From IMG/VR virus record IMGVR_UViG_3300032287_002524, positions 1 through 31,166 of that record: a stretch of 31,166 bases of DNA, one strand, 5' to 3'. Of the stretch, positions 14,998 through 21,916 are shown one piece after another. The notes beneath the pieces were generated by a model, which was given only the letters and a program-made list of their open reading frames with translations, was not told the DNA's origin and made no database searches. The DNA comes from a virus. Made by a program: the position numbers and the translations under genes. Every line of letters begins with the position of its first letter. Position 1 is the stretch's first letter.

Positions 14998-15326
14998 CGG
15001 GCACGATCCTGCCCAGCTTGGGCATGCCAACCGCGCAGCTTGGCTATCTCATTGCATGCGCACAAGTAATGCGCCGGCCCCCAGCTCCAACAGCCTAACC
15101 CGTGCATGTGTTGCACCGTCTCTTTGTCCAGTGCGTCGTATATCGCGTCAATTGATTCGTCGCACAGTGTGCGGACGTAAGCCTGCCTTCCAGACCATCT
15201 ACCGCCGTGTCTGATGGCTTGCATGTTTCGCAAGGCTTTAACGGCTGCGGCCCTCATTAGGTTGCTCATAGGAGAGTTAGGCGAATTATCTTTAGCTGAT
15301 AAATCCGAGTAATTCGTATCGCTCAT
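14994..15326 (-). CDS. Hypothetical protein
   Basis: 110 residues from the ATG at 15326, which overlaps the upstream stop as ATGA; an internal ATG at 15269 is an alternative. The first 20 residues are Ser/Asn/Asp-rich. The remainder is helical (SNLMRAAAVKALRNMQAIRH, ESIDAIYDALDKETVQHMHG) and ends with a Trp/Cys-rich stretch. No domain recognised. It overlaps the DUF4224 start, so it is translationally coupled in the left operon. Confidence 0.5.
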   Translation of the reverse strand: MSDTNYSDLSAKDNSPNSPMSNLMRAAAVKALRNMQAIRHGGRWSGRQAYVRTLCDESIDAIYDALDKETVQHMHGLGCWSWGPAHYLCACNEIAKLRGWHAQAGQDRAR

Positions 15327-15658
15327 GCCGCCAGCCTCCCCGCCATCATGTGCAGCATCTCCGCCTGGGCCTTGCGCGCCCGAGCTATGCGCATCCTTGT
15401 CCGTCCCAGCGGCGCCGGTTTCTTCGCATCCTTTGCCTCGCCAAACCCCCACACCTTTGCACTGGCGCACCCGCGAGCGTCTTTGCGCCACTCACACACA
15501 TGGATCACCTTGTGCTTGTGTAGCTCGCGCATGAATCGCGCCACAGTCAGGTAGTGCAACCCCACATGGTCGGCCAGCTCCTGGTACGTCATGTCAGTGT
15601 CCATCAGCGCCTTCATTAGCCGCGCGTTAGACGACGCATTGATTCGCTTAAATCTCAT
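15323..15658 (-). CDS. Winged-helix DNA-binding protein
   Basis: 111 residues from the ATG at 15658, which overlaps the methyltransferase stop as ATGA. Residues about 20-55 (MTYQELADHVGLHYLTVARF, then RELHKHKVIHV) form a helix-turn-helix with a following strand pair, as in winged-helix regulators. The C-terminus is strongly basic and helical. This may be a transcription regulator of the left operon or an accessory DNA-binding protein. No specific family name can be given. Confidence 0.55.
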   Translation of the reverse strand: MRFKRINASSNARLMKALMDTDMTYQELADHVGLHYLTVARFMRELHKHKVIHVCEWRKDARGCASAKVWGFGEAKDAKKPAPLGRTRMRIARARKAQAEMLHMMAGRLAA

Positions 15659-16583
15659 TCTGTAAGCAGTCTCCATGCTGCTGCGGCGCAGGCTGGCACT
15701 TGTCCATTTCCAAGGCTTTTAAGTCTGTCCACCCGAGCGGCCACCCCATCAGCCACTCGACCCACATCGGGTTCAGACGCATACCAGTCTGGTACTCCAC
15801 CACCCAGTCGAGCATGTCTGAACGACTCTTCCCATCCTTGCGTATCATGGAATTCCCCCCCCCCTTGTGAATCCGCGCCGTCGGCGTCGGCCGGCGATTG
15901 ACTGCTACGGTCAGCGATTGCTGCAGATTGATGCCCTGCGCCGCCTTGTCGACCTGACGCCGCTCCCAGTTCGCCACGTTGCCCGTTTGCTTGGAGTCCC
16001 CGGCGTTCGGCGTCGGCCATTTCTGCACAGCAGTCGCCAACCCGTCGCCACTGGTCGCTGACGCTCCCTTGCGGTTGTAGTTCCCGCACACCGTTGGCGT
16101 AGGCCACAAGCCAAAATCTGTCGCGCTGGTGCGGCGCCCCAACGTCGGCAGCTCCCAGCACTGTCCATCGACAGTCATACCCGAGCGCGGCCAAGTCACC
16201 GAGCACGACTCCGAGTCCTCGAGTAATGAGTGCTGGACTGTTTTCCACAAAGACGTACTTGGGTCGAACCTCGCCAATGATCCGCGCCATGTGTCGCCAC
16301 ATTCCGCTGCGCTCGCCTGTGATGCCTGCGCCTTTTCCTGCAACGCTGATGTCTTGGCACGGAAAGCCGCCAGATACGACATCAACAACCCCCGCCCACG
16401 GTCTGCCGTCAAAGGTCTGAACGTCATCCCAAACCGGGAAAGGCGGGAGAAGGCCGTCATTCTGTCGGGCGGCAAGTACGCAAGCTGCGTATGGCTCCCA
16501 TTCGACTGCGCAGACTGTTCGCCATCCGAGCAACTTTCCGGCAAGTATTCCGCCACCAGCGCCCGCGAATAGAGATAGCTCAT
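15648..16583 (-). CDS. Overlapping second frame inside the methyltransferase locus
   Basis: 311 residues in another frame of the same strand, from the ATG at 16583 (9 bases after the AGGAG that also serves the methyltransferase GTG) to a stop 7 bases past the methyltransferase stop. The text is not random. FGMTFRPLTADRGRGLL, FDPSTSLWKTVQHSLL, TWPRSGMTVDGQ, two WPTP blocks and LNPMWVEWLMGWPLGWTDL recur, to my memory, in phage proteins labelled hypothetical or methyltransferase-like. Either this is a true dual-coded product, perhaps a partner of the methylase, or the family is itself a shadow of conserved methylase genes. Role unknown. Confidence 0.5.
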   Translation of the reverse strand: MSYLYSRALVAEYLPESCSDGEQSAQSNGSHTQLAYLPPDRMTAFSRLSRFGMTFRPLTADRGRGLLMSYLAAFRAKTSALQEKAQASQASAAECGDTWRGSLARFDPSTSLWKTVQHSLLEDSESCSVTWPRSGMTVDGQCWELPTLGRRTSATDFGLWPTPTVCGNYNRKGASATSGDGLATAVQKWPTPNAGDSKQTGNVANWERRQVDKAAQGINLQQSLTVAVNRRPTPTARIHKGGGNSMIRKDGKSRSDMLDWVVEYQTGMRLNPMWVEWLMGWPLGWTDLKALEMDKCQPAPQQHGDCLQNEI

Positions 16584-16587
16584 TCAC
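15655..16587 (-). CDS. C5-cytosine DNA methyltransferase
   Basis: 310 residues with a GTG start at 16587 that overlaps the previous stop as GTGA; AGGAG lies 5 bases upstream. Conserved motifs run in order: I (ELSLFAGAGGG, 3-13), IV with catalytic Cys77 (GGFPCQDIS), VI (FVENSPAL, 113-120, Ser in place of the usual Val), VIII (HQRDRFWLVA, 153-162) and X (LGNGQVPACAA, 292-302). The target-recognition region (about 165-275) is variable. It would methylate phage DNA, probably against host restriction; no partner restriction enzyme is seen. A G10 run (15855-15864) lies in the coding sequence. A second long frame covers nearly the whole gene. Confidence 0.85.
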   Translation of the reverse strand: MNELSLFAGAGGGILAGKLLGWRTVCAVEWEPYAACVLAARQNDGLLPPFPVWDDVQTFDGRPWAGVVDVVSGGFPCQDISVAGKGAGITGERSGMWRHMARIIGEVRPKYVFVENSPALITRGLGVVLGDLAALGYDCRWTVLGAADVGAPHQRDRFWLVAYANGVRELQPQGSVSDQWRRVGDCCAEMADAERRGLQANGQRGELGAASGRQGGAGHQSAAIADRSSQSPADADGADSQGGGEFHDTQGWEESFRHARLGGGVPDWYASEPDVGRVADGVAARVDRLKSLGNGQVPACAAAAWRLLTE

Positions 16588-19666: not shown

Positions 19667-19815
19667 TTCTGTTTCTCCTGAACTTTCTGGACGGCTTGCC
19701 ATGTCTTTCGGATGTCGGTCTTGCGCAGGTTTACGGGAAACCCTTTGATGCGCTGGTCGCACCAGCCCAAGACGGGCGCGCGGCCCGCCTGCTCAAGTTG
19801 TTGGCGTGCATTCAT
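19663..19815 (-). CDS. Small basic protein
   Basis: 50 residues from the ATG at 19815, which overlaps the upstream stop as TGATG. The text (MNARQQLEQAGRAPVLGWCD, then KGFPVNLRKTDIRKTWQ) is basic and helix-rich with a single Cys. Not recognised. It is coupled to genes on both sides. Confidence 0.45.
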   Translation of the reverse strand: MNARQQLEQAGRAPVLGWCDQRIKGFPVNLRKTDIRKTWQAVQKVQEKQK

Positions 19816-20165
19816 CAGGCACCCCACCGCAGCGCAGGAAACGCGGGTTGAGCGCACACATCTCTAAAGGCGTCAAACGCCAGTTCTTCGTCATCGCGCC
19901 ACTGTCGGCGCAACTGACGTGCGCGGCGGTCGGCCCAGTCGCGTGCGAACTCCAGAAACCAGGGCTGCAAGCTGCCGGCCTGAACGGCGCGGGCGAGCTG
20001 GAAGGGGTCAACTTCGCGCTCAGTGACCAGCCACTGGCACAGATCAACCAGGGCGGGCACTTCCGTGCCGAGTGCGTAGAGCGCGGGGATGTAGTCGTTG
20101 TGCTGGAGCGCGTCCCACACTTGATCGTGGGCGGCGCTGTGTGCTGCGTCGAAGTCGAAGGTCAT
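19815..20165 (-). CDS. Hypothetical protein, first gene of the left operon
   Basis: 116 residues from the ATG at 20165 with GGAGAG upstream. It is acidic and helical with many Trp/Phe/Leu (VWDALQHNDYIPALYALGTE, PWFLEFARDWADRRARQLRR). No domain is recognised. As the first gene behind the left early promoter it holds the position of N or other early regulators in lambdoid phages, but it does not look like an arginine-rich antiterminator. Confidence 0.5.
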   Translation of the reverse strand: MTFDFDAAHSAAHDQVWDALQHNDYIPALYALGTEVPALVDLCQWLVTEREVDPFQLARAVQAGSLQPWFLEFARDWADRRARQLRRQWRDDEELAFDAFRDVCAQPAFPALRWGA

Positions 20166-20206
20166 GTCCGTCTCTCCATGCCGCTGTCTTTGCGGTGTGG
20201 AAAGAA

Positions 20207-20247
20207 GTCTACGGGACAAGGACGCTACTGTCTATAGCGCAAGGACG
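20207..20247. promoter_or_regulatory. Left operators (two 18-bp sites)
   Basis: Two related 18-bp sites lie 23 bp apart, 20207-20224 and 20230-20247. Read on the minus strand they are CGTCCTTGTCCCGTAGAC and CGTCCTTGCGCTATAGAC. A third copy with the same ends (CGTCCT, six variable bases, GTAGAC) lies at 20719-20736 on the plus strand over the cro promoter. The outer GTC/GAC symmetry suggests 17-bp dimer sites, as for lambdoid repressors. Confidence 0.65.
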
Positions 20248-20258
20248 AAAAGTTTAAA
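20231..20258 (-). promoter_or_regulatory. Left early promoter (PL-like)
   Basis: On the minus strand TTTAAA (-35, 20253-20258) is separated by 16 bp from TATAGA (-10, 20231-20236). The -10 lies inside the second left operator, so repressor binding would block it. It reads into the recombination operon that starts at 20165. Confidence 0.55.
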
Positions 20259-20284
20259 AAATTTTTGCTGCGTCGCAAAGACTG

Positions 20285-20302
20285 GCGCTACCAGCGCTTT
20301 TT
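20285..20302 (+). terminator. Short hairpin with T-run at the repressor gene end
   Basis: GCGCT (20285-20289), a 3-nt loop and AGCGC (20293-20297) are followed by five T residues. It would stop plus-strand RNA running against the repressor gene. It overlaps the end of the repressor coding sequence, so it may partly be chance. Confidence 0.3.
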
Positions 20303-20716
20303 GTCTAAACGCGGAGCCGACGCGGCGGCGCCGGCGGCAGCGGCGTAGGTTTGCTGAAAGGCGCGCATTGCGGCTTTGCCCGCTTCGTCCAGGCTTGCGT
20401 AGTCACGCAAGAATTGTTCTTCGGCGCTTAAAGGTGCGGTGCTCCCGGGTAGCAACTGTTCCGGAGGAATTCGGTACAAGCCGGCCAATTTCAGTAAATC
20501 TACTACTGAAATCGCGTTTACCCCAGTCTCCCAGTTTCCAATTGCGGATTTTGCGCAGCCGACTTGCTTAGCGACATCCGCCAATGACATTTCGGCGCGA
20601 ACTCGCGCGGCTCGCAGCAGCGCGCCGAGCTGGGCGTTGAACTTTGGGTCTTTCTCAAGCACCAAATCAGCGTACATCAACCAGCGGATGCAAACGGCCT
20701 CAAGCTGTGGACACAT
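20288..20716 (-). CDS. CI-like phage repressor (short, HTH only)
   Basis: 142 residues from the ATG at 20716 (GAGGA just upstream); starts at 20677 or 20746 cannot be excluded. Residues about 29-89 are a helix-turn-helix of the XRE/Cro-CI family (LGALLRAARVRAEMSLADVA, then KQVGCAKSAIGNWETGVNAI and IPPEQLL). There is no S24/LexA-type cleavage domain: the remaining 50 residues are helical and Ala-rich. Divergent from cro with operators at both PL and PR, it is the immunity repressor by context. Without the protease fold it should not be inactivated by RecA-stimulated self-cleavage. Confidence 0.75.
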   Translation of the reverse strand: MCPQLEAVCIRWLMYADLVLEKDPKFNAQLGALLRAARVRAEMSLADVAKQVGCAKSAIGNWETGVNAISVVDLLKLAGLYRIPPEQLLPGSTAPLSAEEQFLRDYASLDEAGKAAMRAFQQTYAAAAGAAASAPRLDKKRW

Positions 20717-20737
20717 GCCGTCCTCACGGTGTAGACT
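20708..20737 (+). promoter_or_regulatory. Right early promoter (PR-like) with operator
   Basis: TGGACA (20708-20713) is followed after 16 bp by TGTAGA (20730-20735) or after 18 bp by TAGACT (20732-20737). The operator CGTCCTCACGGTGTAGAC (20719-20736) covers the -10. The geometry matches the left promoter. The expected RNA start is about 20742-20744, at the cro start codon. Confidence 0.55.
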
Positions 20738-20744
20738 GCTATTC

Positions 20745-20954
20745 ATGACGTCAGACAACTCCTCAATCGCAAAAGCAGTTCAAGCCGCAGGCGGTCTCAC
20801 CGCCCTCGCAAACTTGGTTGGCACAACCAAGGGCGTTGTGTGGGCGTGGGTGGATCGCGGCCGATGCCCGCCGCAGTACGCAAAAAAGATTGAACTGGCA
20901 GTCGGCGGACTTGTGACGGCCCGCGAATTGCGACCCGACGTGTTCGCTGAATAA
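20745..20954 (+). CDS. Cro/YdaS-like regulator
   Basis: 69 residues. The text (SIAKAVQAAGGLTALANLVG, then VVWAWVDRGRCPPQYAKKIE and VTARELRPDVFAE) matches the small Cro/YdaS-type DNA-binding family, 'A...GG...LA..LG....V..W..RG.P......IE...G.VT..ELRPD'. It is divergent from the repressor and would bind the shared operators to favour lytic growth. No Shine-Dalgarno sequence precedes the ATG, and the promoter predicts an RNA starting at or next to it, so translation may be leaderless. Confidence 0.75.
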   Translation: MTSDNSSIAKAVQAAGGLTALANLVGTTKGVVWAWVDRGRCPPQYAKKIELAVGGLVTARELRPDVFAE

Positions 20955-20987
20955 CTGTATGCATACCCAGCAGTCTGATCTGTCGGT

Positions 20988-21004
20988 GGCTCATGAAATG
21001 AGCC
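20988..21004 (+). other. Perfect 7-bp hairpin after cro
   Basis: GGCTCAT (20988-20994), loop GAA, ATGAGCC (20998-21004). No T-run follows. In lambda this position holds nutR and tR1, so an RNA-borne regulatory hairpin is possible. The rest of the 188-base gap 20955-21142 holds a G10 run (21049-21058) and the RBS of the replication gene; I see nothing else in it. Confidence 0.4.
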
Positions 21005-21142
21005 TGCACGCGCGCTGTGGATGTCGGTGCTTTGTCCCTAGCCCAGTCGGGGGGGGGGCTGCTGTTGGCATGTCTTTGTCTCCTACAGCGAATTTACCGG
21101 CACGCGAAATGATTAGGCAATTGCTCTAAAGGATTAGTTCTT

Positions 21143-21916
21143 TTGAATTACTACGCGTTCCATCTCGGCGACTACGCGGCACACACATCGCACCTCGATC
21201 CGCTGGAGGACATTGCTTATCGCCGGCTGATCGACCTGCACATGCTGCTGGAGCGCCCGCTGCCGCTTGATGTCGATGAGCTGGCTCGCAAGATTCGGAT
21301 GCGTGACCACGCCGCAATTGTGCGCGACGTGCTGAACGAGTTTTTCATCCGCGCCGACGACGGTTGGACGAACGACCGTTGCATGAAAGAAATCACCAAG
21401 TACCAGTCGAACAAGGACGCTGCCAAACGCGCAGGACAGGCGTCTGCTGAACGTCGCACACAGAAAAAAGCAACGCCCGTTGAACGACCGTTGAACGACC
21501 GTTCAACGCAACACGACGAGCACGTTCAACCAACCAAGAACCATAAACCAAGAACCAATAACCAAGAACCAGAACAAAGAGTAGGCCAGCGCGCGGAGTC
21601 GATGCCGCACGAATTCCCTGGCCCTACTGAGCTGGACTGGTGTGAATCGGAGCGACCAGACCTGTCGGCAGGGGCCGTAGCGCTGCAGTTTCGGGATTAC
21701 CACCTTGCCCACGGCACGGCGATGAAGTCCTGGCCTGCTGCGTGGCGAACGTGGGTTCGCAAGGAGCGACAGCACGCCGCTGCACGCGCATCGCCCGCAC
21801 TGACCGCGCTGGATCGGCAGGCAGAAGTCATCGCCAGGATCACGGGCACTGCGAATCGAATCGTTGACATCGAGGGCGAAATTGAGCGACCAAAACTTAC
21901 CGCTGCACGCAATTGA
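21143..21916 (+). CDS. DUF1376 replication initiation protein
   Basis: 257 residues from a TTG at 21143 (AAAGGA about 9 bases upstream). The N-terminal 90 residues (YYAFHLGDYAAHTSHLDPLE, then IAYRRLIDLHMLLERPLP) are DUF1376, a winged-helix-like domain found in phage replication initiators. The middle (about 105-150) is a low-complexity Asn/Gln/Lys/Pro linker encoded by direct repeats that look like origin iterons. The C-terminal part (SWPAAWRTWVRKERQHA) resembles the end of DnaT/replication-O-like proteins. It probably binds the origin inside its own gene and brings in the helicase loader encoded next. Confidence 0.75.
   Translation: MNYYAFHLGDYAAHTSHLDPLEDIAYRRLIDLHMLLERPLPLDVDELARKIRMRDHAAIVRDVLNEFFIRADDGWTNDRCMKEITKYQSNKDAAKRAGQASAERRTQKKATPVERPLNDRSTQHDEHVQPTKNHKPRTNNQEPEQRVGQRAESMPHEFPGPTELDWCESERPDLSAGAVALQFRDYHLAHGTAMKSWPAAWRTWVRKERQHAAARASPALTALDRQAEVIARITGTANRIVDIEGEIERPKLTAARN
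21479..21571. repeat. Iteron cluster, candidate replication origin
   Basis: Two tandem 11-bp copies of GTTGAACGACC (21479-21489 and 21490-21500) are followed by inverted GTTCAAC at 21501 and 21524. Three exact copies of AACCAAGAACCA follow at 21532-21543, 21546-21557 and 21560-21571, with a 14-bp period. All lie inside the replication-protein gene, as the lambda origin lies inside O. The second block is A-rich on this strand. Confidence 0.6.

Follow-up and report, generated by a model that had tools for sequence, protein, structure and literature searches.

A predicted lambda-like immunity switch with related tandem operators at both early promoters of a temperate phage

Closely similar 18-bp sites at the two early promoters of a viral genome raise the question of whether they are the operators of a lambda-like switch and, if so, which protein binds to them. 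We addressed this question in a stretch of 31,166 nt (one strand; positions 1 to 31,166 of IMG/VR record IMGVR_UViG_3300032287_002524), here referred to as the window. A sequence-only reading of this DNA had described three matching operators, two at the left early promoter (PL) and one at the cro promoter (PR), and had proposed that they define a lambda-like switch. Judged from its sequence, the window very probably carries the immunity region of a lambdoid temperate phage with a P22-type portal, in which CI and/or Cro would act on four sites to block PL and PR.

The three sites described previously, OL1 (20207-20224, minus strand; CGTCCTTGTCCCGTAGAC), OL2 (20230-20247, minus strand; CGTCCTTGCGCTATAGAC), and OR1 (20719-20736, plus strand; CGTCCTCACGGTGTAGAC), were confirmed in position and strand, and 11 of their 18 columns are identical. 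A fourth site, OR2 (20695-20712, plus strand; CGGCCTCAAGCTGTGGAC), had been overlooked; 9 of 18 columns are identical across all four sites, so that the operator set is 2+2, perhaps 3+2, and not three. A promoter scan of positions 20100 to 21150 returned two sites where 0.3 was expected, namely, PL (20206-20234, minus strand; TAGACA-17-TAGACT) and PR (20708-20737, plus strand; TGGACA-18-TAGACT). In all four operators, the final five bases are the first five bases of a promoter hexamer. The downstream operators run into the -10 hexamer (OL1 with the next T gives TAGACT at 20211-20206, and OR1 with the next T gives TAGACT at 20732-20737), and the upstream operators run into the -35 hexamer (OL2 with the next A gives TAGACA at 20234-20229, and OR2 with the next A gives TGGACA at 20708-20713). 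Both -10 sites have the same geometry, with CGTCCT-N6-GTAGAC running into TAGACT, as had been claimed. The tandem spacing is 23 bp between OL1 and OL2 and 24 bp at PR, where OR2 lies upstream of OR1 on the same strand, and the additional base at PR matches the promoter spacers of 18 and 17 bp. The sites are imperfect 17-bp dyads with the half-site GTCYWYRN, in which 4 to 6 of the 8 dyad pairs are kept. A weaker site, OL3 (minus strand, with its 17-mer core at 20186-20202), may be the third on the left; it lies 21 bp from OL1 and ranked 5 of 31,150 with a symmetric matrix. However, it is only tentative, since a leader hairpin that is also present in L005, a related locus with a different CI, uses this stretch for its 5' arm and its loop. 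No third right site was seen in the matrix ranking of window positions.

The genes surrounding these sites are those expected of a lambdoid phage. Divergent genes for a CI-type repressor (20288-20716, minus strand) and for Cro (20745-20954, plus strand) are present, the left operon contains the genes for Erf, YqaJ, and an integrase, and the right operon contains genes for a DUF1376/primosomal protein and a P-like loader, with terminase and P22-type portal genes following these replication genes. The first gene of the left operon (19815-20165, minus strand) encodes a 116-aa protein with no assigned function. CI is an XRE helix-turn-helix protein that matches HTH_31/HTH_3 and phage repressor PHROGs. 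No C-terminal S24 autopeptidase domain was detected, with only HTH families matching at E values up to 0.1, and one of its two PDB matches, a weak one, was to the P22 C2 repressor (1adr, E 0.005). A structure model of CI built from the single sequence was poor (mean pLDDT of 55.7) and was set aside. The putative CI length of 142 aa depends on which of two start codons is used: the ATG at 20716 has GAGGA just upstream and places OR2 inside cI, whereas the ATG at 20677 lacks a clear ribosome site, yields a protein of 129 aa, and leaves both right operators intergenic. In the alignment, the CI proteins of relatives start near residue 28 of the 142-aa form. The 69-aa Cro belongs to the YdaS/Xfaso1-Cro family (PF15943; E 1.3e-15, 57.4 bits with a cutoff of 30) and matches PDB entry 3bd1 (E 8.5e-8), which is annotated as "Cro protein" and which we take to be Xfaso1 Cro. 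An Rfam DnaX match inside cro was rejected, as it fell below the gathering score (21.4 versus 35). Elsewhere in the left operon, a second small protein with weak matches to repressor families (PHROG 2328, E 3e-4) is encoded at 15323-15676 (minus strand). A C5 cytosine methylase gene lies at 15655-16587 (minus strand) and is overlapped, in a different frame on the same strand, by an open frame of 311 aa.

The earlier statement that the sites directly link the repressor to both early promoters goes further than the sequence allows, which does not tell whether CI, Cro, or both proteins bind. In a narrower form of our explanation, these sites would be read by just one of the two proteins, Cro or CI, and the other would have sites of its own. 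In favor of such a division, the helix-turn-helix families of CI and Cro differ, and in the portion of PMC3991615 that was available, neither of the phi11 repressors bound all three of its operators. However, in the closest studied system, the footprints of PaaR2 and YdaS overlap, according to the available part of PMC8630535. We consider the restriction to one protein unlikely, although it is the most serious of the alternatives, and continue to favor four sites that would be open to CI and/or Cro.

Among the triples of 18-mers that can be drawn from the regions of the two promoters, the best has 11 of 18 identical columns, against at most 9 in dinucleotide shuffles (n = 400) and at most 10 in random pairs of other real window regions, a value attained by 12 of 400 pairs. 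None of the 400 shuffles and none of the 400 real region pairs reached 11. A weight matrix built from OL1, OL2, and OR1 only placed 20695-20712 at the top among all other window positions on both strands (13.8 bits, with the next at 12.1). The wider pattern SGKCCTN6RTRGAC matched the four sites and no other position in the 31,166-base record, and it had no match when read backwards; since this pattern was fitted to the four sites, the matrix made without OR2 provides the independent support. A genome-wide scan had been proposed; in the window, the wider pattern is confined to the four sites, and a loose pattern that tolerates up to three mismatches shows only mild enrichment (26 matches versus 16.4 expected). 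With training on one side only, the left-pair matrix ranked the right sites 3 and 15 and the right-pair matrix ranked the left sites 7 and 31 (of 31,150), so the operators were not always at the top.

These comparisons bear on a second alternative, in which the likeness of the sites is a mere resemblance of two early promoters with shared -35 and -10 hexamers and spacer and no repressor reads them. The right-hand TAGAC of each site belongs to a promoter hexamer and is thus partly constrained by this role, and a single PL/PR pair is by itself weak, being identical at 13 of 17 positions, which 9 of 200 shuffles equaled. As such a pair is unremarkable, the support comes from the whole set and its placement. 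Against mere resemblance, the CGTCCT part lies outside the hexamers, either within the spacer or ahead of the -35, and is nevertheless kept at 6/6 in three sites and 5/6 in the fourth. Six sigma70-like promoter sites were found by the same rule in the whole window, and CGTCCT lies 13 bp before the -10 only in PL and PR (6/6 in both); the other four do not have even 4/6 of it at that place. In addition, the sites show dyad symmetry. We therefore regard promoter resemblance as improbable and binding by CI and/or Cro as the better account.

Related genomes give a further view of the switch. The terminase search kept 80 loci, five of which have a terminase 81 to 91% identical to that of the window. 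A switch with a divergent CI/Cro gene pair was identified in two of the five, L005 and L006; L007 gave no match to CI or Cro at E 1e-3, and none was found in L008 or L009, both of which extend upstream of the terminase gene by just about 3 kb. Erf is kept in L005 (92%) and L006 (76%), while their CI proteins are 19 to 20% and their Cro proteins 44% identical to those of the window. In 87 other loci, a set that included the neighborhoods L085 to L089 from the Cro searches, 8 of 956,133 positions scored at least as high as the weakest window candidate. None of these lies in L005 or L006, and three come from L090, a locus that had been retrieved by the operator pattern itself. In L006, a different motif is common to the -10 regions of PL and PR (15/17; 0 of 200 shuffles), and in L005 the shared PL/PR motif was not significant (17 of 200 shuffles). 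When the window is aligned with L005, close similarity in the PL flank is limited to the part that begins near the -10 and lies downstream. A host regulator governing both early promoters is highly improbable, as nothing was found in its favor and the motif is missing from relatives whose Erf and terminase genes are similar but whose CI and Cro differ. The differences from the window, seen in two relatives only, suggest that CI, Cro, and operators are likely exchanged as a unit, and these two relatives, with other repressors on a similar genome, are a likely example of such swapping of an immunity module.

The collections searched (viral_contigs, genome_contigs, and phage records) yielded no relative in which the repressor and the operators are the same. 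With CI as the query, no relative was confirmed in viral_contigs or genome_contigs, and phage records gave 41 weak partial matches at <60% identity; the Cro search gave 3 distant loci in viral_contigs and 66 matches at <60% in phage records, a degree of divergence at which common operators would not be expected. A strict tandem-operator pattern had no match in viral_contigs, and a looser one had a single match each in viral_contigs (L090) and genome_contigs (L091). Both were rejected as chance matches, as they lie in tandem or inverted repeats, and inspection of the L090 open reading frames by eye revealed no recognizable repressor. The operator code and the repressor are therefore new to the collections searched, which does not prove their absence elsewhere.

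Two noncoding elements were noticed next to the switch. The leader of the left operon contains a hairpin (20173-20202, minus strand; z score of -3.65 against shuffles) that pairs with the Shine-Dalgarno region of the first gene; a similar hairpin is present in L005 (2945-2990; z score of -3.29), and a weak one is present in L006 (z score of -1.43). A noncoding block after cro (20955-21142, plus strand) is well conserved in L005 (3742-3940) and partly conserved in L006, despite the differing cro and cI genes. It contains a perfect hairpin, GGCTCAT-GAA-ATGAGCC (20988-21004), 10 consecutive G residues (21049-21058), and GCTCTAAAGGATTA (21123-21136); its overall folding is no better than that of shuffled sequences, and it is possibly an antitermination or leader element.

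Taken together, the anatomy, the statistics, and the gene identities support well a lambda-like switch with operators common to both early promoters, so that this part of the earlier proposal stands, although with a larger operator set. In the mechanism that we propose, the two tandem operators of each early promoter themselves supply, with their right-hand ends, its -35 and -10 hexamers. A CI and/or Cro dimer on these operators would exclude RNA polymerase from both early operons, possibly with pairing of dimers over the two-turn operator spacing, and lysogeny would be held by CI. The -10 of PR ends only 7 bp ahead of the cro ATG, and the cro message is therefore probably leaderless, as far as this spacing can tell. 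No convincing cI promoter was found in the promoter search of the window, the best candidate scoring 7/12. Since several weak candidates overlap OR1, binding at this site would probably repress cI as well; Cro made from PR would then damp both early promoters and, via OR1, probably cI. It is conceivable, although doubtful, that this is a compact switch with two sites per promoter, operators that supply both hexamers, and a repressor without a peptidase, in which there is neither SOS cleavage nor a CI-activated cI promoter. CI would in that case only repress, itself included via OR1, and induction would need an antirepressor or dilution. The locus opens no new question on phage switches, whose design in this form is already known, but it makes available a precise and testable 17-bp GTCYWYRN dyad operator code for an uncharacterized phage group.

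In phage lambda, the operators over PL and PR are tandem 17-bp imperfect dyads spaced by about two helical turns, with cI to the left and cro to the right. The window shares this arrangement, with tandem 17-bp imperfect dyads about two turns apart overlapping PL and PR and the same gene order. In contrast to lambda, no peptidase domain was detected in CI, no site was found placed to activate a cI promoter, and there are two strong sites on each side rather than three, the third left site being tentative and a right one not being seen; three operators a side are a feature of lambda that is not demanded of every lambdoid member. At the level of protein sequence, 3bd1 and XPH1 (5w8y) match the Cro of the window over nearly its full length. 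The Rac prophage, as described in the available part of PMC5700373, likewise has a repressor, RacR, divergent from ydaS with repeats between the genes; however, its repeat is GCCTAA, and three copies lie in a 123-bp intergenic region. The closest studied system, as far as the available text of PMC8630535 goes, is the cryptic prophage CP-933P of Escherichia coli O157:H7, with PaaR2 as the CI analogue and YdaS as the Cro analogue. According to that text, CP-933P differs from the window, with its four clear sites, in its operator set, with four inverted repeats and three operators on the right side, three on the left side, and another consensus, and also carries YdaT, a CII analogue, and toxin-antitoxin genes, neither of which was identified among the window proteins scanned. 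The same text describes overlapping footprints for the two CP-933P proteins. Similar to the window, this prophage has a YdaS-type Cro divergent from the CI analogue, related operators at both PL and PR, and, as a further likeness, identical -35 and -10 hexamers in the two promoters (PMC8630535, available part).
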